From positions 1-24,010 of IMG/VR virus record IMGVR_UViG_3300042868_002141: 24,010 nt of DNA, one strand, 5' to 3'. The notes under the pieces are model-generated. The model ran no database searches and was not told the DNA's origin. It worked only from the letters and a program-made list of their open reading frames with translations. The position numbers were made by a program, and so were the translations under genes. The stretch comes from a virus. This document shows, in pieces, positions 351 through 18,135 of the stretch. How positions within the stretch are numbered: position 1 is the first letter of the stretch; each line of letters starts with the position of its first letter.

Positions 351-503
351 ATGGAATTAAAACAAGGCAAAAAAAGAGGGGCAAAGCCTAAGGAAGATAA
401 AAAGCAAGCAGTCACATTTATGCTACGTCAATCAACTATCAATGCTATTGGTGGAATGGAAGCAGTTAGGGCAAAAGCGGTTAATCATTTTGAAATCTTA
501 TAA
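351..503 (+). CDS. Small basic protein, probable DNA-binding (50 aa)
   Basis: A short complete ORF that opens the rightward operon. The N-terminus is strongly basic (KQGKKRGAKPKEDKK), followed by a strand-like segment (AVTFMLRQSTINAIGG) and a short helix (MEAVRAKAVNHFEIL). Small proteins with a KRG/KPK start and a central GGxEAxR motif recur in Bacteroidota mobile elements, and I read this as one of them, perhaps ribbon-helix-helix-like. It ends just inside the following NinG gene, consistent with translational coupling. The start is the first ATG after the candidate promoter. Function is not established. Confidence 0.6.
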   Translation: MELKQGKKRGAKPKEDKKQAVTFMLRQSTINAIGGMEAVRAKAVNHFEIL

Positions 504-1014
504 AGACAAACCATGCCGAGCGTGTGGCGATATTTTCCCACAGCGTAAATCTACTGAAGTGGTTTGCTCAATTAAATGTGCAATCGAATTATCCAAAAAG
601 AAAACCGATAAAAAAAAGAAAATAGCTGATAAAGTAGAGATTGAGGTACTTAAGTTAAAGGTAAAAACAATATCAGACTATACTAAGGAAGCTCAGGCGG
701 TATTTAATAAATGGATAAGAGTACGCGATATAAACGAGCCTTGTATTAGTTGTGGTAGTTACATGGGGCAAATGCACTGCGGTCACTATAAGACTACAAA
801 AGCACATCCTGAGCTAAGGTTTAACGAACTCAACTGCCATAAGCAATGTGCAACGTGTAACAACTATCTAAGCGGTAACATAATTAAGTATAGGATTGAA
901 TTGATTAACAGAATAGGAATTGAAAAGGTCGAATGGATTGAAGGTCCACACTCTCCAGTTAAGTATACGATTGAAGATTTAAAGGAAATTAAAAAGAAGT
1001 ATGCAGTCAAATAG
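490..1014 (+). CDS. ninG: NinG/Rap-like recombination protein
   Basis: The protein closely follows the layout of lambda NinG (Rap), a structure-specific nuclease acting on branched recombination intermediates. An N-terminal zinc-ribbon-like cluster (C9, C12, C26, C30, numbered from the TTG at 490) is followed by a Lys-rich linker. Then comes the conserved core with PCISCG (C85, C88), a CGHY segment, the LRFNE motif and a further Cys/His cluster ending in SGN. The C-terminal RIELINRIG segment is also family-like. About 174 aa from this start. An upstream in-frame ATG at 442 exists, but it would overlap the preceding gene by 62 bases and add residues without family similarity, so the TTG at 490 is preferred though not certain. 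The stop overlaps the next gene by 14 bases. Confidence 0.88.
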   Translation: MKSYKDKPCRACGDIFPQRKSTEVVCSIKCAIELSKKKTDKKKKIADKVEIEVLKLKVKTISDYTKEAQAVFNKWIRVRDINEPCISCGSYMGQMHCGHYKTTKAHPELRFNELNCHKQCATCNNYLSGNIIKYRIELINRIGIEKVEWIEGPHSPVKYTIEDLKEIKKKYAVK

Positions 1015-1471
1015 AGATGCTTTAGTTGATTTGGTTATAAAAGATATTGCATACAAAAAAAAGTGTAAGGTCTTTTCACCCGATAACTATGAGGATTTGT
1101 ATCACGACATTGTGCTATTACTTTTAGAAATAAGCGAAGATCGTTTGCCAACTATTGAAAACTTACCTTTTTGGTTTTTCAGAGTAGCAAAGAATAAAGT
1201 ATCAAAAACAGGTTGCGATAAAAAGTTAAGGAGTGAAATCATAACCGATAACTTTACAAAGAAACTCAACCCAATAAAACAACAGCAAAGTGTTTTAACA
1301 GATGCTGAGATTAAGAAAGCCGAAAGGATTATGATAGAGTTAACCGAGTTTGAGAACAGAGTTATAACAGCCTATAATCAATTAGGCAATATGAAGAAAG
1401 TCGCAAGGTTTACTGGTATACCATACGCAAGTTTAAGAATAGTTAAGGACAAGATAAGAAAAATCAAATGA
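1001..1471 (+). CDS. Sigma-70-like / HTH transcription protein (156 aa)
   Basis: The N-terminal half resembles sigma region 2: an acidic helix with YEDLYHDIVLLLLE (about residues 27-41) followed by PFWFFRVAKNKV, which is like the aromatic DNA-melting helix. The C-terminal 45 residues (TEFENRVITAYNQLGN, then KKVARFTGIPYASLRIVKDKI) fit a region-4-type helix-turn-helix. The length suits a minimal phage sigma-like factor. It overlaps NinG by 14 bases and the next gene by four (ATGA). It sits just before the late genes, so a role in late transcription is attractive but inferred. It could also be a non-sigma HTH regulator. Confidence 0.55.
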   Translation: MQSNRDALVDLVIKDIAYKKKCKVFSPDNYEDLYHDIVLLLLEISEDRLPTIENLPFWFFRVAKNKVSKTGCDKKLRSEIITDNFTKKLNPIKQQQSVLTDAEIKKAERIMIELTEFENRVITAYNQLGNMKKVARFTGIPYASLRIVKDKIRKIK

Positions 1472-2538
1472 AAATACTTGTAGTAATACCAAGTTCAGCA
1501 AAGAAAATAAATGGAGTAGACTATCATCGAATGTTGATACCCCATAACCGTATGGGCATACTTAACCCTGAAAGTGAAATAAATGTATGCAATGACATCG
1601 AGGCGTTAACAGATGAGCAACTTGCAGACTTTAACCTCGTTATCTTTAACCGTTTTATATCTCAGTCAGGAAACGAAAAGCAGGTGTATAAAAGGTTGCT
1701 AACTTTAAGTTTGCCTTATGTATTGGACATGGATGACGATTATAGGCTTAACCTTTCGCACCCTCTTTATGAGCTTGTTAAGTTAGATAAACACGCAGAT
1801 AAGATAATGTTTGCAATGAAAAATGCAATAGCCATTACCGCAGCATCAAAACTACTTGCCGAAACATTAAAGAAAGAAAGCGGAAACCAAAATGTATTTA
1901 TAGTTCAAAACGGAATTGATACCTCACAAGACCAATTTAAGGTAAATGAAATTAACCTACCTAATTTAACTTTTGGATGGACTGGTAGCGTTAGTCACTT
2001 TGATGATGTGCTATTATTACATGATAGCCTATTAGCTTTATACTTACACCCTGACTTTTGCAATACGTTTAGATTTGTTTATGGTGGGTTTGACAAATCG
2101 GATGCAGTAAGTCAATCAATACTTGGCGTTTTAACCTGCAAAGGAATAGCAGATACAACTCAGTTCGATGTGTTCCCTGCAACCGATGTAGATAACTACG
2201 CTACGTTTTACGATAATATAAATGTGTCTTTAATACCGTTAAGGGCAAACCGTTTTAATAGTTTGAAATCTAATCTTAAACTTTTGGAGGCAGGGTTTAA
2301 AAAGAAAGCAGTAATAGTATCGGATGTTGAACCGTACAAGTCTTATCTTAAGCATGGTGTAAACTGCCTTGTAGTTAAGAATAAACACGATTGGTATAGG
2401 CATATGGTATACTTGATTAAGAACCCTCACATAGCTACTGAGTTAGCCGAGCAACTATATCAAGATGTACAAGTATTCGAGATTGACAATATAGCAAAAA
2501 GAAGATTTAACATTTATAAAAAACTATGCAACCAATAA
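1468..2538 (+). CDS. GT-B fold glycosyltransferase (GT4/GT1-like)
   Basis: At 356 aa this has the full two-domain length of a GT-B enzyme. The N-terminal domain begins MKILVVIPSS and contains the acidic VLDMDDDY segment (about residue 85). The C-terminal donor-binding domain starts near residue 168 (FGWTGSVSHFDD). It carries the typical SNLKLLEAGFKKKAVIVSD motif (about 268-286), in which a Glu in the LLEAG segment usually contacts the nucleotide sugar, then GVNCLVV. There is no signal peptide or membrane segment, so it is probably cytoplasmic. It opens a five-gene cassette through an ATGA overlap. Donor and acceptor cannot be read from the sequence. Confidence 0.85.
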   Translation: MKILVVIPSSAKKINGVDYHRMLIPHNRMGILNPESEINVCNDIEALTDEQLADFNLVIFNRFISQSGNEKQVYKRLLTLSLPYVLDMDDDYRLNLSHPLYELVKLDKHADKIMFAMKNAIAITAASKLLAETLKKESGNQNVFIVQNGIDTSQDQFKVNEINLPNLTFGWTGSVSHFDDVLLLHDSLLALYLHPDFCNTFRFVYGGFDKSDAVSQSILGVLTCKGIADTTQFDVFPATDVDNYATFYDNINVSLIPLRANRFNSLKSNLKLLEAGFKKKAVIVSDVEPYKSYLKHGVNCLVVKNKHDWYRHMVYLIKNPHIATELAEQLYQDVQVFEIDNIAKRRFNIYKKLCNQ

Positions 2539-2765
2539 TAATATCAATCGGAATGGCTTGTTTATTCACAGCCTTTCTAACCATTACCAACCTACCAACG
2601 TGGCTTGATTTTAAGCCTTTTAACTGTGCTATCTGCTTATCGTTTTGGAGTACGTTAGTATTAGTTTTTATGGGTTCAATGGGTTATGAAGTTATGTTAT
2701 TTGCCTATGCAGGTATATCGGCATATTCAGCAATCATTTTAAAAAGAGTAATATTCAAGATATGA
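2526..2765 (+). CDS. Small membrane protein with CxxCLSFW motif (79 aa)
   Basis: Two or three hydrophobic segments are visible (about residues 3-21, 36-52 and 55-72), so this is an integral membrane protein with little soluble part. The motif NCAICLSFW (about 33-41) recalls the Cys-x-x-Cys-Leu-x-Phe-Trp signature of DUF1360-type small membrane proteins. It overlaps the glycosyltransferase by 13 bases and the next gene by four, so it is made together with the glycan genes. It might anchor or recruit them at the inner membrane; this is inference. The biochemical function is unknown. Confidence 0.65.
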   Translation: MQPIIISIGMACLFTAFLTITNLPTWLDFKPFNCAICLSFWSTLVLVFMGSMGYEVMLFAYAGISAYSAIILKRVIFKI

Positions 2766-3040
2766 GAACATACGATGAGATTTACAGCGACATAATAGCT
2801 GATACTGGCGATAGGTTTACCATTAGAAAACTTATTGATGTGTTCGTAACTGAAAGCGATTGGATCGGAACCCACCAACAAACTTTAAAATGTGCCTCGC
2901 TATCTTTGGAGATTACAGGAATAAGGATAGGGAGTTGTTCCTCGTGTATGTTGGATGGAATAAAGAACTTAGTCAGGTGGATTAACAAGCACGAAGAAAC
3001 TATTTTAGCAGCACGTAAACCAATAAAGAAAACAAAATGA
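2762..3040 (+). CDS. Hypothetical CxxC protein of the glycosyltransferase cassette (92 aa)
   Basis: I do not recognise this protein. It is soluble, mostly helical by appearance, and carries GSCSSCMLDGIKNLVRWI (about residues 57-74), a Cys pair that could bind metal together with upstream C44 or be redox active. The C-terminus is basic. ATGA overlaps join it to the membrane protein before and the GT9-like gene after, so it is a genuine coupled member of the cassette. Whether it acts in glycan modification or is a passenger is unknown. Confidence 0.6.
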   Translation: MRTYDEIYSDIIADTGDRFTIRKLIDVFVTESDWIGTHQQTLKCASLSLEITGIRIGSCSSCMLDGIKNLVRWINKHEETILAARKPIKKTK

Positions 3041-3807
3041 GAGTTAAGCAGTCAGGGCATATTGGAGATTTAATTTATTCGCTATCCTCAATTAAACGAG
3101 TAGCTGAGTTGAGTGGTGATCCTGTGGACTTGTTTATTGGGTTCAATGAAATCAATCGAACGCCTGAGCACCCGAGCGGTAACTATACAATGAATGATAA
3201 TTACTACCGATACTTGCTACCATTGTTAAAAGAGTTGCCTTATATCAATTCGGTAACGCCTGCTAAAAAAGAAGTTGAGGTCGATTACAATTTTGATAGT
3301 TTTAGAAACAATGGTTATAATTTAGGAGCATACGATTTACGAAGATGGCATGGATTGATATACGAGGATTTAAGCCATCCAAATATAATGACTGCTAAAT
3401 GTATTGAGATTGAAAACAAACTGCCTTATTTAAAAGGTAAGATAGCAATAAACCTTAGCCTAAGATACCGCAACCCAACTATTGATTACAGCAAGTTAAA
3501 AGATATTGAGCACGATTTAATATTTGTAGGATTAGATGATGAATATAACGATTTTATGTTGAGGTATAACGTAATACCTAAGCGAGTAAATGTCAAAGAT
3601 GCTTTACACATGGCTACGATATTAAATTCAGTTGATTTATTTATTGGTAATCAAAGTAGTACATTTGCAATAGCCGAACAAATGAAAATAAAACGAGCAT
3701 TAGATGTCTATAACCCATCACCAAACGTAATAGTTAGCGGTGATAATGGTTATGACTTTATGACAACCAAAGGAATGATTAACGCAATAACTGAATTAAC
3801 AAAATGA
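3037..3807 (+). CDS. Glycosyltransferase family 9-like (heptosyltransferase-like) protein
   Basis: At 256 aa it is somewhat shorter than typical GT9 enzymes (about 300-350). The N-terminus SGHIGDLIYSLSSIKRV matches the Gly-Asp start of ADP-heptose:LPS heptosyltransferases. The C-terminal part (DALHMATILNSVDLFIGNQS, about residues 187-206, then STFAIAEQM) matches the region in which this family binds the donor nucleotide and places a conserved acid/Asn and Ser/Thr near it. The usual His of the GPxHLA signature is replaced here (SSTFAIAEQ), so the donor may differ from ADP-heptose. Overlaps of four bases on both sides. Family assignment is good; the reaction is inferred. Confidence 0.7.
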   Translation: MRVKQSGHIGDLIYSLSSIKRVAELSGDPVDLFIGFNEINRTPEHPSGNYTMNDNYYRYLLPLLKELPYINSVTPAKKEVEVDYNFDSFRNNGYNLGAYDLRRWHGLIYEDLSHPNIMTAKCIEIENKLPYLKGKIAINLSLRYRNPTIDYSKLKDIEHDLIFVGLDDEYNDFMLRYNVIPKRVNVKDALHMATILNSVDLFIGNQSSTFAIAEQMKIKRALDVYNPSPNVIVSGDNGYDFMTTKGMINAITELTK

Positions 3808-4385
3808 TTTTGAACAAATTAAACTTTTTAGGAGTTAAAAATGGAGTTGAGTATTTTCAAGATGAAAACGGTATTATCTTTTGTGAACCTTTGGACCAGG
3901 GGAATAAGTTAGGAGGCACAAATGAAAATGAAAGGAACATAAGCCAAAACTTAACCCGAATAGAAAGAGTTAAACAAATCAAAGAGGGTGCGAATGTATT
4001 AGACTTTGGATGTGGCAATGGATTATTGGTAAATGACTTTAATCAATCAGGAATAAATGCAAGTGGCTATGATAAGTTTAGCACGCTCTTTAAAAAAAGA
4101 CCCAAAAAAGAAAGTTTCGACATAGTATTAATGATAGAAGTGATTGAGCATTTAACAAGTCCCTTTAAAGAATTAGACTTAATATACAAGTCATTAGTGA
4201 AAGGTGGCTCAGTAATTGTTGAAACCTCATTTAGTGATTGGTTAACTTTAGAAGATACATACATTGAGCCAAGCATTGGACATTCAACTATATTCTCTCA
4301 CAAAGGATTGACTAAGTTAATGCAAATTAAAGGTTTTACCGAGGGTGAACATATTGATAGGAACACAAGAGTATACATTAAATAA
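3804..4385 (+). CDS. Class I SAM-dependent methyltransferase
   Basis: The Rossmann-fold SAM-binding motif VLDFGCGNG occupies residues 65-73, followed by the acidic end of strand 2 (GYD, 88-90). The strand-4 region FDIVLMIEVIEHL (105-117) is the Methyltransf_23-type signature of small-molecule or sugar methyltransferases. A late GGSVIVETSF strand follows. No DPPY/NPPY-type catalytic tetrapeptide of amino-DNA methylases is present, so a DNA methylase is unlikely. It is coupled by ATGA to the GT9-like gene, so a natural reading is O-methylation of a sugar added by the cassette, for example as a cap. That role is inference. Confidence 0.82.
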   Translation: MILNKLNFLGVKNGVEYFQDENGIIFCEPLDQGNKLGGTNENERNISQNLTRIERVKQIKEGANVLDFGCGNGLLVNDFNQSGINASGYDKFSTLFKKRPKKESFDIVLMIEVIEHLTSPFKELDLIYKSLVKGGSVIVETSFSDWLTLEDTYIEPSIGHSTIFSHKGLTKLMQIKGFTEGEHIDRNTRVYIK

Positions 4386-4391
4386 ACAAAC

Positions 4392-4847
4392 ATGGCAAAG
4401 CATAAGTACATAGAAACCCCTGAAAAGATGTGGGAACTATTTGAGCAATATAAGACATACACTAAAAGCAAACCTATTTTAGTTCAAGACTTTGTAGGAA
4501 AAGATGGTGATGAAGTAAACCGAAAGAAAGAAAGACCCTTAACCATTGATGGTTTTGAATGTTGGTGTTACGATAACGACATTATAAGCGATTTAAGCCA
4601 ATATTTTGCAAATACCGAACAAAGATACAGCGAATATCAAACTATCTGTTCACGCATACGTAAAGCAGTAAGGACAGACCAAATAGAAGGAGGCATGAGT
4701 GGCATTTACAATTCATCCATAACTCAACGGTTAAACGGTTTAACTGATAAAACACAAGTTGAGAATAGTGGAGAGGTAAAAATAATAACAGCAAATTTTG
4801 GAAATAGAACTATACACACCTCACAAGAACCAGGAGAAGATACATAA
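4392..4847 (+). CDS. terS: Terminase small subunit
   Basis: The 151-aa protein carries the pattern of the P22 gp3-like small terminase family: an N-terminal MWELFEQYK helix, a TIDGFECWC segment, then YQTICSRIRKAVRTDQIEGG and SGIYNSSITQRLNGL. Small terminases form a ring that recognises the packaging site and hands DNA to the large subunit. Its 3' end overlaps the large-subunit gene by 50 bases in another frame, which supports both the partnership and coupled translation. The start ATG follows a short A-rich gap after the methyltransferase. Confidence 0.88.
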   Translation: MAKHKYIETPEKMWELFEQYKTYTKSKPILVQDFVGKDGDEVNRKKERPLTIDGFECWCYDNDIISDLSQYFANTEQRYSEYQTICSRIRKAVRTDQIEGGMSGIYNSSITQRLNGLTDKTQVENSGEVKIITANFGNRTIHTSQEPGEDT

Positions 4848-6003
4848 CTCTATTAATAACGAGAAGTATAAGTATTATGTTCTTGATATTGGTAGGCAGT
4901 TTGGCAAGTCTATGCTTGCACAAAACCAAGCAGCATATTGGGGATTTAATGATGCAGGCTGTGTAATAGGATGGGTAAGTCCTATTTATAGGCAAGCAAA
5001 GAAAGTATTTACAGAACTAACGCAAGCATTTTCTGGGCATAACCTATTTAAGATTAATAATTCAGACTTAGAGATTAAGTTCCCTAATGGATCATTGATG
5101 AAATTCTTTTCATCTGAAAGGTACGACAATATAAGGGGTGAAACATTTGATTATCTAATATGTGATGAGTTTGCTTTTATGGATGCTTTGGCATGGTCTG
5201 AAGTATTAAGGGCAACCGTACTTGTAAAAGGCAAAAAGGTTTTACTTATATCAACACCAAAGGGCAAAAATCATTTCTTTAACTTGTTTAGTCTTGATGG
5301 TTCAAACGCTCAATACAAGTCATTTAAAATGACATCTTATGATAACCCTATAATAAACCCAACTGAAATAGATGATGCAAGATTAACACTTCCTGACCAT
5401 GTATTTAGGCAAGAATATTTAGCTGAGTTTATTGATGGTGGCTATTCGTTATTTGCAGCAGCAAAGTTTACAGCTTTAGGACAATCAACCTCTCGTAATT
5501 ATGCAGGTGTCGATTTGGGTAGGGCAGATGATTATACAGTTATATCTGTATTTAATCAAAATGGAGAGCAGGTTTATATTGAAAGATGGAGGCATGATAG
5601 CTGGACTAATATAGTAGCAAAATTAATAAAGGTTATAAATATTTATTCGGCTTATACCCTAATTGAAAGTAACAGTATAGGTGATGCTATTTATGAGCAG
5701 GTTCGAAACGGATGCTTAAACAAATCAAAAATACAACCATTTTTTACAACATCTAAAAGCAAACAAGATATTATAGAACAGTTAGTTGTTGCTTGCCAAA
5801 ATGAAGATATTAAATTTAATGATAATGAATTTCTTAAAAAAGAGTTAGATATATTTGGGTATGAGTACAATCCTAAATCTAAATCAGTTCGTTACTCTGC
5901 ACCTTCAGGCTTTCATGATGATGCTGTAATGGCAACAGCTATATCATATCATGCACTTAAAACATTAAGGGGCGGTGGCAAGTATGTTGTACTAAATGTG
6001 TAG
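4798..6003 (+). CDS. terL: Terminase large subunit (packaging ATPase/nuclease)
   Basis: The 401-aa protein shows both terminase domains. An adenine-contacting TPHKNQEKIH segment (7-16) precedes the Walker A-like GRQFGKS (32-38); Walker B is LICDE (120-124) with E124 the likely catalytic Glu; the coupling-type motif LLISTPKGK follows (about 150-158). The RNase H-like nuclease begins GVDLGRADDYT (D239 first metal ligand) and ends in HDDAVMA (D374/D375). The start is TTG: no ATG occurs between it and the Walker A, and translation from here restores the N-terminal adenine motif. It overlaps the small subunit by 50 bases. It powers DNA translocation into the prohead and cuts the concatemer. Confidence 0.94.
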   Translation: MEIELYTPHKNQEKIHNSINNEKYKYYVLDIGRQFGKSMLAQNQAAYWGFNDAGCVIGWVSPIYRQAKKVFTELTQAFSGHNLFKINNSDLEIKFPNGSLMKFFSSERYDNIRGETFDYLICDEFAFMDALAWSEVLRATVLVKGKKVLLISTPKGKNHFFNLFSLDGSNAQYKSFKMTSYDNPIINPTEIDDARLTLPDHVFRQEYLAEFIDGGYSLFAAAKFTALGQSTSRNYAGVDLGRADDYTVISVFNQNGEQVYIERWRHDSWTNIVAKLIKVINIYSAYTLIESNSIGDAIYEQVRNGCLNKSKIQPFFTTSKSKQDIIEQLVVACQNEDIKFNDNEFLKKELDIFGYEYNPKSKSVRYSAPSGFHDDAVMATAISYHALKTLRGGGKYVVLNV

Positions 6004-6033
6004 CAATAAGACTTAAATTAATACTATTATAAA

Positions 6034-6645
6034 ATGATTACCAACTACGAAAACCTAACGATTAAACAATTTCTAAACTGCAAGTTAATTTCAGACTTAG
6101 AAACCGACCCTATTCAACGTAAAGTAAAGATGCTTGCTGAGATTAGTGGTAAAAGTGTGGATGAGATTGAGTCAATGCCTATCGAAAAAATGATAAAGCA
6201 TTTGAAAGACTTGGAGAATATCGAAAACATTGCAACCCTATCAAAGGTGAAGATGAAGTTTAAGGTAGGTAGTAAAAGGTTTGAATGTATTTGGAAGCCT
6301 CAGGAATTAACAGCGGCTCAATATGTGGATGTAACACACTTTTGCAAAGATCAGGATGCGATAGTTTCAAACATTCATAACATATTAGCAGCTATTTGTG
6401 TAGAGGTTAATTGGTTTAAGAGGACTAAGTACGATGGGGTGAAGCATAAGGAGGTGGCTAATTTGTTTTTAAACAAAATGAAAATAAGTCAAGCCTACCC
6501 GATAATGGTTTTTTTTTGCAAGTTCTATCAGGAATTATCAAACAGTATCCTAACTTGTTTGGAGAAGGAAGTTCTGGAGGTGAAGGAGTTAGCGGAGAAA
6601 CATTTGAAAAGCGATGGGGATGGATTGCAGTCATTAACAATTTAA
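6034..6645 (+). CDS. Tail assembly chaperone-like protein, unshifted product (gpG-like)
   Basis: This 203-aa, mostly helical protein starts with an ATG after a 30-base gap. It has a central beta-like segment (KMKFKVGSKRFECIW, about 74-88) and a helical core (ELTAAQYVDVTHFC). The identification rests on architecture: the frame contains a T9 slippery run at codons 159-161, after which a second open frame continues to 6770. That gives a longer alternative product, exactly the arrangement of G/GT tail assembly chaperones, which coat the tape measure protein before tube assembly. It lies 4.6 kb before the tape measure gene rather than directly beside it, so the call is probable, not certain. Confidence 0.6.
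   Translation: MITNYENLTIKQFLNCKLISDLETDPIQRKVKMLAEISGKSVDEIESMPIEKMIKHLKDLENIENIATLSKVKMKFKVGSKRFECIWKPQELTAAQYVDVTHFCKDQDAIVSNIHNILAAICVEVNWFKRTKYDGVKHKEVANLFLNKMKISQAYPIMVFFCKFYQELSNSILTCLEKEVLEVKELAEKHLKSDGDGLQSLTI
6509..6517 (+). promoter_or_regulatory. Probable programmed -1 frameshift slippery site (T9)
   Basis: In the frame starting at 6034 the run reads GTT TTT TTT TGC, so T TTT TTT at 6510-6516 satisfies the X XXY YYZ rule with two Phe codons slipping back one base. After the slip, reading resumes at 6516 (TTG CAA) in the frame that stays open to 6770. Unshifted translation stops at 6645 (203 aa); shifted translation gives about 245 aa. No strong downstream stem-loop or pseudoknot is obvious by eye. 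A homopolymer sequencing error is the main alternative. Confidence 0.65.
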
Positions 6646-15751: not shown

Positions 15752-16174
15752 ATGTTGAACATTATCAAAGACACGATTAATACAATAGTTGTTACCTTAA
15801 CAGAGAATGCAACTACTTTTAATCCTATCTATTTATTTAAGTTCACTAATCAGCAATCAAATGTTGACTATTACTTTATAAGCACAGATACATCGAGCCA
15901 CATTGAGCGTTACAATAAGTTTTTACTAACTGAAAAAACAAACGCTAATACTTTAACTGGTGAAGTGACATTAGGCAATGAGGGGTTTTATAATTATGTA
16001 GTATACCAAACTAACTTACCTAACACTTCAGGGCTTACAAGTGCCTCAGAAGCGGTTGCAAACATAGTTAAGAGCGTAGAAGTTGGATTAGTTTGGGTTG
16101 TTCCTTCGGCGGTTGTCAATGTAACATATGAGCCTTCAAGTAATACATCAATAGTTTATCAATATCAAAATTAA
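15752..16174 (+). CDS. Beta-rich phage structural protein, unknown role (140 aa)
   Basis: I recognise this only as a type of small protein common in Bacteroidota phages. It opens with hydrophobic strands (NTIVVTLTENATTFNPIYLF), contains SSHIERYNKFLL (about 48-59), and has GNEGFYNYVVYQTN (about 75-88) near the end of a probable single beta-sandwich. A C-terminal VEVGLVWVVPSA strand and a flexible tail follow. It is the first gene after the terminator and overlaps the portal start by one base (TAATG). A head, neck or tail accessory role is likely from position only. Confidence 0.5.
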   Translation: MLNIIKDTINTIVVTLTENATTFNPIYLFKFTNQQSNVDYYFISTDTSSHIERYNKFLLTEKTNANTLTGEVTLGNEGFYNYVVYQTNLPNTSGLTSASEAVANIVKSVEVGLVWVVPSAVVNVTYEPSSNTSIVYQYQN

Positions 16175-18135
16175 TGTATAAAAATAACGTAATATCAATA
16201 GGCTTTAGCAACGATAAAGTACCCGAGTTTCAGGAAGTAAGAGGCAAGGATTGGGTATATTATGGCGAAACTAATAACTATCCTCAGTATCTTGTATTGC
16301 TATTCAACAGAAGTGCAAAACATAACGCTATAATAACAAGTAAGCAACTATACATTGCAGGTCAGGGATGGGTATTTAATGCCGATGGAATGAGTGGCGA
16401 AGATACGATTGCATTGCGTTCATTTATTGATAATCCAAATCCATACGAAACACTACAAGACCTTTTAACAAAAACGGTTTTAGATGTTGAGTTGTTTGGC
16501 GGTTTCTATTTTAAAGTAACCCAAAAGAAAGGCAAGAAAGGGCATTATATTTCGCACGTTGATTATGCTAAAATAAGAAGTAATGAGGATAATAGTTTAT
16601 TCTATTATTCAAACTATTGGTTAAATAAAAACGGAGAGCCGAATACCAACATTAAAGAGGATGAGTATACTGTTTATCCTGCGTATGATGCTGAGAAACC
16701 TGCAAGCGAAAGTATCTACTATTATAAAATGTATCGCCCAAATTTAAACACGTATACACTACCTGATTATATTGGTGCGGTTCCTGCTATTATTACAGAT
16801 TGCGAGATTGCAAACTTTCACAGAGCCGAAATACAAAATAGTTTTAAAGGTTCTAAAATGATAATCTTTAAAAACGGCATACCTTCAGACGATGAGATTA
16901 ACGCTACTGAAAGAAAATTAAAAAACAAATTTAACCCAACAGATGCAGCGGGTTCATTGGTAGTTGACTTTGTAGACGATCCGATTAGAGTTCCTGAAAT
17001 ATTGGATTTAAGTGCTGGCGATTTTGCCGATAAGTACAACGCTTTAAACGATACCATACAGCAAGAGATATTTGTTGGACATAAGGTAACTTCACCTATG
17101 TTATTTGGTGTTCGTGTAGAGGGTCAATTGGGTGGCAGGAGTGAAATGGTAGATGCTTATAACATATTCCAAAACACTTATGTTGACCCACGCCAACAAG
17201 TTCAAGAAAAAGTTTACAATTTATTTTCACCTATTAAGGGTAAGTTAAAGATTAAACAATTAGAGCCTATTATGCCATCGTTTAGCGAATCGACATTAAG
17301 TCAAATATTGACTAAGGATGAGATGAGAAGCATTATCGGTAGAGAGGCAATTGAAACAAGTGTTGCATCAGGATTGGTTGATGAAATAAATTCATTAAGT
17401 CCTATGTTAGCTACTAAGGTAATAAACAGCTTAACTCAAAACGAAGTTCGTGCAATAGTTAATCAGCCACCAGTTAATGGAGGTGATGCAGTTACAGATA
17501 CCGCACCTGCAAATTTTAGTTCGTGTAAACATTTTGCAGCAAATGATGATTTGGATTTTGAAGTGTTTTCAAAGTATGGTGAAAGCGTAGATAACTATGT
17601 TGAAGTTAAGCATAAGAAATTTATGTTTTCTTATCAAGACTTTGCACTTACTAAATTAGATGAGGCAATTTTAGACATCATTAAAAAGACTCCAAACATT
17701 ACCAAAGAGGGTATTGGCAAAGTTTTAAAGATTGACAAAACAAAAGTATTAAACTCCTTAGAGAATTTAGTTGCCGATGGATTAGTTGAAGATTCAGCAA
17801 AAGGAATTACGGCAACCCCTGAGGGAGTACAAAAAAAAATACCGAGTTTAGAAAGTTTAGTAATTCGTTACAAGTATAATTTAAGACCTGGAGCACCTGC
17901 ATTAGTAGATGGCGGTGAGAGTAGAGATTTTTGCAAAGCAATGATGGCAAACCCACGCTACTACACACGTGAAGATATACAAATGATTGGTGATGACTTA
18001 GGGGCGTTATACGGAATAGATAACTATAATGCTTTTACAAGGCGTGGCGGTTGGTATCATGACCCGAATACAGATACAAACCTACCTTATTGCAGGCATA
18101 TTTGGGAACAAAGTTTAGTAAAGAAAATTAAATAA
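16174..18135 (+). CDS. Portal protein with C-terminal winged-helix-like and CRH modules
   Basis: Residues about 1-410 are a portal: YYGETNNYPQYLVLLFNRSA near the start, a stem/wing region with LDVELFGGFYFKV, and the crown-proximal region DLSAGDFADKYNALNDTIQQ, then KVTSPMLFGVRVEGQLGG. This dodecameric ring is the DNA entry channel at the head vertex. At 653 aa it is longer than many portals. About 490-555 looks like a winged helix (LDEAILDIIKKTPNITKEGI, then the recognition-like helix DKTKVLNSLENLVADGLVE). About 560-650 is a module with ESRDFCKAM, RRGGWYHDP and YCRHIW, seen in other Bacteroidota phage head proteins and reminiscent of MuF-type C-termini. It overlaps neighbours by one base on each side. 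Confidence 0.85.
   Translation: MYKNNVISIGFSNDKVPEFQEVRGKDWVYYGETNNYPQYLVLLFNRSAKHNAIITSKQLYIAGQGWVFNADGMSGEDTIALRSFIDNPNPYETLQDLLTKTVLDVELFGGFYFKVTQKKGKKGHYISHVDYAKIRSNEDNSLFYYSNYWLNKNGEPNTNIKEDEYTVYPAYDAEKPASESIYYYKMYRPNLNTYTLPDYIGAVPAIITDCEIANFHRAEIQNSFKGSKMIIFKNGIPSDDEINATERKLKNKFNPTDAAGSLVVDFVDDPIRVPEILDLSAGDFADKYNALNDTIQQEIFVGHKVTSPMLFGVRVEGQLGGRSEMVDAYNIFQNTYVDPRQQVQEKVYNLFSPIKGKLKIKQLEPIMPSFSESTLSQILTKDEMRSIIGREAIETSVASGLVDEINSLSPMLATKVINSLTQNEVRAIVNQPPVNGGDAVTDTAPANFSSCKHFAANDDLDFEVFSKYGESVDNYVEVKHKKFMFSYQDFALTKLDEAILDIIKKTPNITKEGIGKVLKIDKTKVLNSLENLVADGLVEDSAKGITATPEGVQKKIPSLESLVIRYKYNLRPGAPALVDGGESRDFCKAMMANPRYYTREDIQMIGDDLGALYGIDNYNAFTRRGGWYHDPNTDTNLPYCRHIWEQSLVKKIK

Follow-up and report, generated by a model that had tools for sequence, protein, structure and literature searches.

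The window analyzed here is the whole 24,010-nucleotide stretch of IMG/VR virus record IMGVR_UViG_3300042868_002141, whose source is an uncultivated phage that probably has a host in the phylum Bacteroidota. A preliminary description had placed five coupled genes between a sigma-like gene and the terminase, and this arrangement was confirmed: all five reading frames are open and overlapping, on the + strand, at the coordinates it had assigned, which are those listed below. The junctions of this cassette are ATGA overlaps, save for the 13-base overlap of its first two genes (1468-2538 / 2526-2765). The features of the locus and its flanks are as follows.

442..1014, + strand: flanking NinG/Rap-type junction endonuclease (PF05766, 1.2e-57; phrog_171, 1e-83)
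1001..1471, + strand: core gene 1, sigma-70/ECF-like regulator, its stop overlapping the GT-B start (ATGA); TIGR02952, 2.6e-4
1468..2538, + strand: core gene 2, GT-B glycosyltransferase (phrog_7162, 5e-41; PF13692, 2.9e-5, under cut-off)
2526..2765, + strand: core gene 3, 79-aa membrane protein with an invariant KPFNCxxC and 2-3 hydrophobic stretches
2762..3040, + strand: core gene 4, 92-aa all-helical CxxC protein (invariant residues; AlphaFold model)
3037..3807, + strand: cargo gene 1, GT9 (heptosyltransferase-fold) glycosyltransferase, by fold match
3804..4385, + strand: cargo gene 2, class I SAM methyltransferase (Methyltransf_23; PF13489, 3.3e-18)
3015..4392, + strand: exchange slot, bounded by the CxxC gene (3′ end) and the small terminase gene (start), placed by analogy with relatives
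4392..4847, + strand: flanking terminase small subunit, allele 'TerS7' (PF16677, 1.6e-9; phrog_606, 3.7e-16)
4798..6003, + strand: flanking terminase large subunit (PF03237, 2e-16; phrog_2, 1.3e-46)

Promoter and terminator scans gave signal at background level only, and the defence-system models searched gave zero matches.

The NCBIfam matches of the sigma-like protein of the window are weak, and its homologue in contig L190 covers most of TIGR02937 at 6e-10 (38.9 bits vs a cut-off of 42.9). Of two candidate homologues, RAP44 gp34 was not supported and Nonlabens gp33 had weak similarity. The GT-B protein matches the glycosyltransferase family phrog_7162; its matches to the Pfam models of GT group 1 (PF13692, and PF00534 at 1.4e-3) both fall under the gathering score, and its DDDY, GWxGSxxHF and KSNLKxxExGFK motifs are invariant in 19 sequences. 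Among isolated phages, the GT9, methyltransferase and sigma-like proteins had no match and the GT-B protein had distant relatives only, which at 25-32% identity tell little about its substrate. A prophage or host-genome origin was also considered, and two short-pattern scans covering 84,980 species, with one genome per species, found no GT-B relative; because the patterns are short, this absence is weak evidence.

The preliminary description had also called for two different transferases and a methyltransferase, and all three are present, the GT-B enzyme and the methyltransferase by profile and the GT9 enzyme by fold only. PDB sequence searches with the GT-B and GT9 proteins gave zero matches, and the GT9 protein had no family match in Pfam or NCBIfam and no GT9 match in PHROGs. 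Its structural model, of moderate confidence (pLDDT 74), had PDB 3tov, a GT9 protein, as its top Foldseek match (E 1.2e-4), and gave VIA Z values of 12.8-13.2 to WaaC, WaaF and 3tov, with the next other fold group at 8.5. On this model the protein is GT9-like in its predicted fold over its whole length; it is not filed as a heptosyltransferase. The methyltransferase matches PF13489 with 66.4 bits against a cut-off of 27, and its VLDFGCGNG and IEVIEHL motifs are intact.

The two small proteins between these enzymes are conserved in their cysteines. In the membrane protein, C34 and C37 are invariant in 15 sequences, and every complete locus carries its gene; six contigs that seemed to lack it do carry it, the apparent loss having come from the choice of ORFs. 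The homologue in contig L016 resembles DUF1360 (PF07098) at E 0.027 and 14.9 bits, under the cut-off of 21, while the window protein had zero PF07098 match in Pfam and no match to GtrA. In the CxxC protein, C59, C62, G53, R55 and Q40 are invariant in 29 sequences, and the AlphaFold model (pLDDT 82) consists of four helices. No known family was assigned to it; the model had no PDB match, and its matches were weak and to unnamed viral proteins only. A PHROGs search gave zero matches for both families. We infer from linkage alone that the two proteins take part in glycan work. The locus supplies a context for both of these small, functionally unassigned families.

To place the cassette among its relatives, 107 related IMG/VR contigs were compared. 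The sigma-like gene, the GT-B gene, the membrane protein gene and the CxxC gene form a core that is intact in 92 of the 92 contigs with upstream room and 81 of the 81 with downstream room, and the sigma-like gene lies directly 5′ of the GT-B gene in all of those 92. This arrangement is far beyond chance, because order and frame are kept while most relatives are only 33-53% identical to the window in protein sequence. The fourth and fifth cassette genes behave differently. The exact GT9 and methyltransferase pair of the window occurs only there and in one near-identical contig (L002), and a divergent GT9 followed by a Methyltransf_23 gene recurs in 11 other contigs; the window GT9 is 50% identical to those of L090/L094 and about 30% identical to a 222-aa family. 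The five genes are thus two evolutionary units, three core genes and two cargo genes, and the proposal that they form one complete unit was abandoned since the GT9 and methyltransferase genes are exchangeable cargo behind an invariant core. Relatives do not carry the genes only singly in unrelated positions, the outcome that had been named as contrary to a coupled set; they keep the core genes grouped at the same site.

One rival reading is that not all of the core concerns glycans. The membrane and CxxC proteins could instead serve late gene control or packaging and be tied to the GT-B gene by operon position, so that only the GT-B enzyme and the cargo would act on glycans. The CxxC protein always lies between the sigma-like gene and the terminase, and in contig L192, where the slot is empty, the core runs directly into the terminase; in addition, Nonlabens phage P12024S has small genes in that interval, one of them with CxxC motifs, and no annotated glycosyltransferase. 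However, the Nonlabens CxxC protein was rejected as a homologue (hhalign probability 1.5%), and no contig with room had the membrane and CxxC genes but lacked the GT-B gene. We consider this explanation quite improbable.

The slot that separates the CxxC gene from the small terminase gene is swapped with sharp DNA boundaries among phages that are approximately 90% identical. In the contig pairs L072/L080, L193/L192 and L200/L195, the DNA is 81-93% identical up to the CxxC gene, loses this similarity at the 3′ end of that gene, and regains it at the terminase genes. Most of the alternative cargo is glycan chemistry: either another GT9 and methyltransferase pair, or a GT2 (PF00535, 1.8e-12) with a PLOD-type glycosyltransferase (PF25342, 3e-17) and a sugar-type methyltransferase, the latter a Methyltransf_24 protein that resembles rhamnosyl O-methyltransferase/CmcI and TylF below threshold. 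Other slots hold a methyltransferase alone, or nothing. DNA hypermodification genes (Mom, TET/JBP with ADDT, TAGT, and ParB with a DNA methylase) occur alone or behind the glycan cargo, and QueD/FolE-type genes also occupy the slot in relatives. Instead of a lone glycan cassette, these data describe a defined hotspot made of an invariant four-gene core and, next to the terminase, a slot where near-identical phages swap glycan enzymes or DNA-hypermodification systems at gene-precise boundaries, and they suggest that this hotspot serves to camouflage surface and DNA.

The hypermodification genes that use the slot would also fit a role of the transferases in glycosylating modified bases of the phage DNA. 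However, the core occurs whichever DNA-modification set a contig carries, and also where there is none, and a dedicated TAGT or ADDT accompanies Tet_JBP wherever it is found. Among 26 longer records, which may be fragments, the thymidylate-synthase superfamily was found in 0 and Tet_JBP in 2; the window record, which may likewise be a fragment, has no dCMP/dUMP hydroxymethylase or Tet_JBP. DNA therefore appears an unlikely acceptor, because no hydroxymethyl-base enzyme was detected in 24 of these 26 possibly fragmentary records and the core persists regardless of DNA modification. A homologous GT-B protein is also found in Phapecoctavirus, a group exceptionally sensitive to restriction (PMC8594841). 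We give this role only a slight chance.

It is possible, although doubtful, that the acceptor is part of the virion. The transferases and methyltransferase would then, as in mycobacteriophage Che8, decorate a capsid or tail protein made from the late operon they share, and the cargo would set the glycan type. The locus does lie in the late operon beside packaging and structural genes, and the cassette transferases are soluble, without membrane spans. The PLOD-type glycosyltransferase of the commonest alternative cargo, from a family that acts on protein hydroxylysine, suggests a protein acceptor rather than an envelope glycan. Capsid glycosylation has been reported for Che8 and Rita (cited in PMC11256854). 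On the other hand, the invariant membrane protein would have no obvious role. The benefit in mycobacteriophages is reported, in a study cited in PMC11256854, to concern immune recognition, which would not be selected in environmental bacteria, and their glycosyltransferase genes lie near the genome end and do not adjoin the terminase.

Our best explanation, to which we assign a probability of roughly 0.4, is that this modular late-operon locus modifies glycans and that its product changes the glycan on the envelope of the infected cell. The invariance of the core, the exchange of the slot, the mostly glycan-related alternative cargo, the membrane protein in every complete locus, the LPS-core heptosyltransferases as the closest fold matches of the GT9 protein, and the findings against DNA as acceptor were counted for it. 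The locus lies at the head of the late operon, and the set would be made late, when the sigma-like protein switches on the packaging and structural operon. The GT-B enzyme may add a sugar from the host nucleotide-sugar pool onto a membrane-linked acceptor, while the membrane/CxxC pair holds the enzymes at the inner membrane; the GT9 enzyme would add a second sugar, and the methyltransferase would then cap the product. If the LPS/LOS or lipid-linked O-glycan were altered in this manner, sibling phages or released progeny would cease adsorbing to the infected cell. Against this, superinfection exclusion is best documented for temperate phages. Differing cargo in near-identical phages would result in differing glycan types, which frequency-dependent selection could keep varied, as with the DNA-modification alleles in the same slot.

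No NAD-dependent epimerase was found in the 26 records, and host nucleotide sugars are therefore presumably used. Against the envelope reading, the cassette showed neither a flippase nor an O-antigen ligase or Gtr-type GT-C enzyme, so display on the envelope would rest on host machinery. In its favour, members of the Bacteroidota assemble their O-glycans on a lipid in the cytoplasm, and O-methylation of these glycans is common (PMC12871550). The most economical reading is still, as originally suggested, a methylated glycan on the surface of host or virion, with LPS, O-glycan and virion protein as candidate acceptors. If the glycan part of the locus alters the surface of the infected cell or the virion, closely related phages differing only in the slot would be a natural test set for the function of phage-encoded glycosyltransferases.

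A more specific and rather unlikely version of envelope modification is that the sigma-like gene, the GT-B gene and the membrane/CxxC pair form a dedicated platform. The two invariant CxxC motifs of the adjacent genes would together build one metal site or disulfide relay (a zinc clasp), to which interchangeable glycan enzymes would dock at the inner membrane. These phages would then have a plug-in system for surface-glycan conversion beside a plug-in DNA-hypermodification slot.

In terms of known systems, the cargo GT9 has, along its entire model, the GT-B fold of WaaC, WaaF and the Veillonella GT9 (2h1h, 1psw, 3tov; Z about 13) and keeps the N-terminal G-D motif (D11), but it has 256 aa, is 7-14% identical to them, lacks a Pfam match and lies outside an LPS-core operon. 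The tandem phrog_7162-like glycosyltransferases of Phapecoctavirus (for example Escherichia phage tuntematon gp113-116) include a homologous GT-B protein (28-32% identity) in a multi-transferase phage array, but there four glycosyltransferases lie beside primase/helicase genes in a 150-kb myovirus, and the annotated array has no glycan methyltransferase or terminase neighbour. The Gtr serotype-conversion genes (gtrA/gtrB/gtrC) are similarly phage-borne and coupled, with a small membrane protein and a glycosyltransferase; in contrast, the cassette has no GtrA flippase match or polytopic GtrC and consists of GT-B, GT9 and methyltransferase enzymes. Che8 and Rita also encode glycosyltransferases, which place glycans on capsid protein (cited in PMC11256854), but gene position and host phylum differ. 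Cellulophaga phage phi18:1 gp41 is, by description, a comparable glycosyltransferase inside a flavophage structural module, for which LPS change, DNA protection and other targets were proposed (PMC11946311); it is a single gene and not a core-plus-cargo locus. Finally, although the GT-B/membrane/CxxC core is not annotated in Riemerella phage RAP44 and Bacteroides phage BS-TP2, both of these Bacteroidota phages carry modification-type genes, ParB and PAPS-reductase, directly before TerS and TerL.

All five ORFs claimed in the preliminary description are present on the plus strand of the virus record (24,010 bases), and their junctions are ATGA overlaps, save one overlap of 13 bases. The locus is arranged as follows:

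upstream of the sigma-like gene: NinG
1001-1471: sigma-70/ECF-like gene, directly before the cassette
1468-2538, + strand: gene 1, GT-B transferase
2526-2765, + strand: gene 2, membrane protein
2762-3040, + strand: gene 3, CxxC protein
3037-3807, + strand: gene 4, GT9-like protein
3804-4385, + strand: gene 5, methyltransferase
directly after the cassette: small (TerS) and large (TerL) terminase genes
farther downstream: head-protease-like protein, portal, tape measure, tail protein, endolysin

Gene 1 encodes a GT-B transferase (phrog_7162, 5e-41; Pfam group 1 domains below threshold), gene 2 a 79-aa membrane protein with an invariant KPFNCxxC, gene 3 a small, all-helical protein whose last helix begins with an invariant CxxC and which had no match in a PDB structure comparison, and gene 5 a class I methyltransferase (Methyltransf_23, 3.3e-18). 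The earlier GT9-like assignment of gene 4 was borne out by the predicted fold rather than by profiles: no GT9 match was found in Pfam, NCBIfam or PHROGs, but the AlphaFold model (pLDDT 74) scored Z ~13 to Veillonella GT9 and E. coli WaaC/WaaF, whereas the best-scoring group with a different fold reached 8.5. A G-D motif near its N-terminus is invariant across 12 relatives. The window's sigma-like protein gave a weak profile match (2.6e-4), and its homologue in the related IMG/VR contig L190 gave 6e-10, its 38.9 bits falling short of the 42.9 cut-off.

IMG/VR scans with profiles of the GT-B, sigma-like and CxxC proteins recovered 107 distinct records, the window included. The sigma-like gene immediately preceded GT-B in 92/92 contigs with room, and the membrane and CxxC genes followed GT-B in 81/81 with room; these four genes form an invariant core. 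Using core genes as seeds biases the scans towards recovering them, but GT-B was found in every contig with room from the sigma-like and CxxC scans, which did not select for it. Apparent loss of the membrane gene in six contigs was rejected as an ORF-choice artefact. In L086, a second, divergent sigma-like copy (179 aa) lies between GT-B and the membrane gene.

The slot that separates the CxxC gene from TerS is exchanged. In three contig pairs with 81-93% identical DNA (L072/L080, L193/L192 and L200/L195), identity is lost at the CxxC gene 3′ end and regained at the terminase genes. Mapped on the GT-B tree, cargo GT class requires at least 7 changes and DNA-modification gene presence at least 10, and four cargo types occur within one 18-contig cluster (linkage at ≥95% GT-B identity). 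That exchange recurs across many contigs speaks against assembly chimeras.

Among 73 contigs with a complete CxxC-to-TerL span, the slot held GT2, a PLOD-type GT and a Methyltransf_24 enzyme in 22, GT9 with another Methyltransf_23 enzyme in 11, and a 176-aa methyltransferase without DNA-modification genes in 9; the rest had other combinations, and the L192 slot was empty. The five genes, proposed earlier as one set, are indeed coupled in the window, but their exact GT9/methyltransferase pair occurs only there and in L002. A window-like GT9 (50% identity) is present in L090 and L094, both lacking the window methyltransferase. In L018 (9091-12648) GT2 is present, but the place of the PLOD-type GT and methyltransferase behind it is taken by ParB, a cupin-like protein, PAPS reductase/DUF3440 and another ParB-like protein.

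DNA-modification genes, partly behind glycan genes, occupied the slot in 17/73 contigs. The sets were ParB + Mom; ADDT + kinase + Tet_JBP; TAGT; ParB + N6/N4 methylase; and ParB + PAPS reductase. L195 combines a GT with FolE, QueD and a QueE-like radical-SAM protein. Hypermodification genes were noted in L074, L078, L083, L094, L114, L121, L155, L190, L195 and L201. The L195 genes (1719-6634, core to TerS) also include ParB and a GT1-type transferase; a 301-aa protein after ParB had no family match and could, as a guess, be the inserting transglycosylase. L201 (6285-9038) has a possible self-contained set for sugar activation and DNA glycosylation, composed of ParB, a TAGT-like GT and two proteins that resemble an NTP transferase and a kinase. 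ParB and PAPS reductase also stand at the same position before the terminase in Riemerella phage RAP44 and Bacteroides phage BS-TP2, so use of the slot for DNA modification extends beyond this clade.

Phages are already known to carry GTs, glycan-modifying cassettes and pre-terminase DNA-modification genes; no description of the invariant core, of its two uncharacterised small protein families, or of one slot common to glycan and DNA-modification genes was found in the open-licence papers searched.

The window's TerS allele, TerS7, was without DNA-modification cargo in 45/45 complete slots, while other alleles had it in 17/28 (Fisher 1e-9, uncorrected for kinship); in independent pairs, 3-5 of 6 agreed and none opposed. 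Joint transfer is one possible cause of the association, and recognition of modified DNA another. In L030 (11565-12074), L086, L088, L089 and L092, HNH-like ORFs of homing type (cluster k37) are found next to TerS and ahead of TerL.

The sigma-like protein would drive late expression, the membrane/CxxC pair would provide a membrane tether, and GT-B, GT9 and methyltransferase would act in series. Donors would be host nucleotide sugars, since an NAD-dependent epimerase was found in 0/26 records searched. DNA is an unlikely acceptor, because Tet_JBP is absent from 24/26 records and the thymidylate-synthase superfamily from 26/26, and the core is indifferent to DNA-modification type. Phapecoctavirus phages, which encode GT-Bs homologous to the cassette GT-B, lie within a group exceptionally sensitive to restriction (PMC8594841). 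A host-envelope glycan is preferred by a small margin over virion protein as acceptor, because the membrane protein is invariant, GT9 relatives act in LPS core and alleles are exchanged fast.

The host is likely a member of the Bacteroidota. Shine-Dalgarno motifs are missing before start codons (present at 3/26, with a background rate of 9%), and start codons without them are usual in Bacteroidota. The nearest portal proteins in isolates, and the nearest terminase proteins when a relative's terminase was the query, belong to Nonlabens and Riemerella phages. The window's portal ORF (16174-18135, 653 aa) has a C-terminal extension with weak similarity to families (phrog_12156, phrog_1345) of phage helicases and MotA-like regulators.
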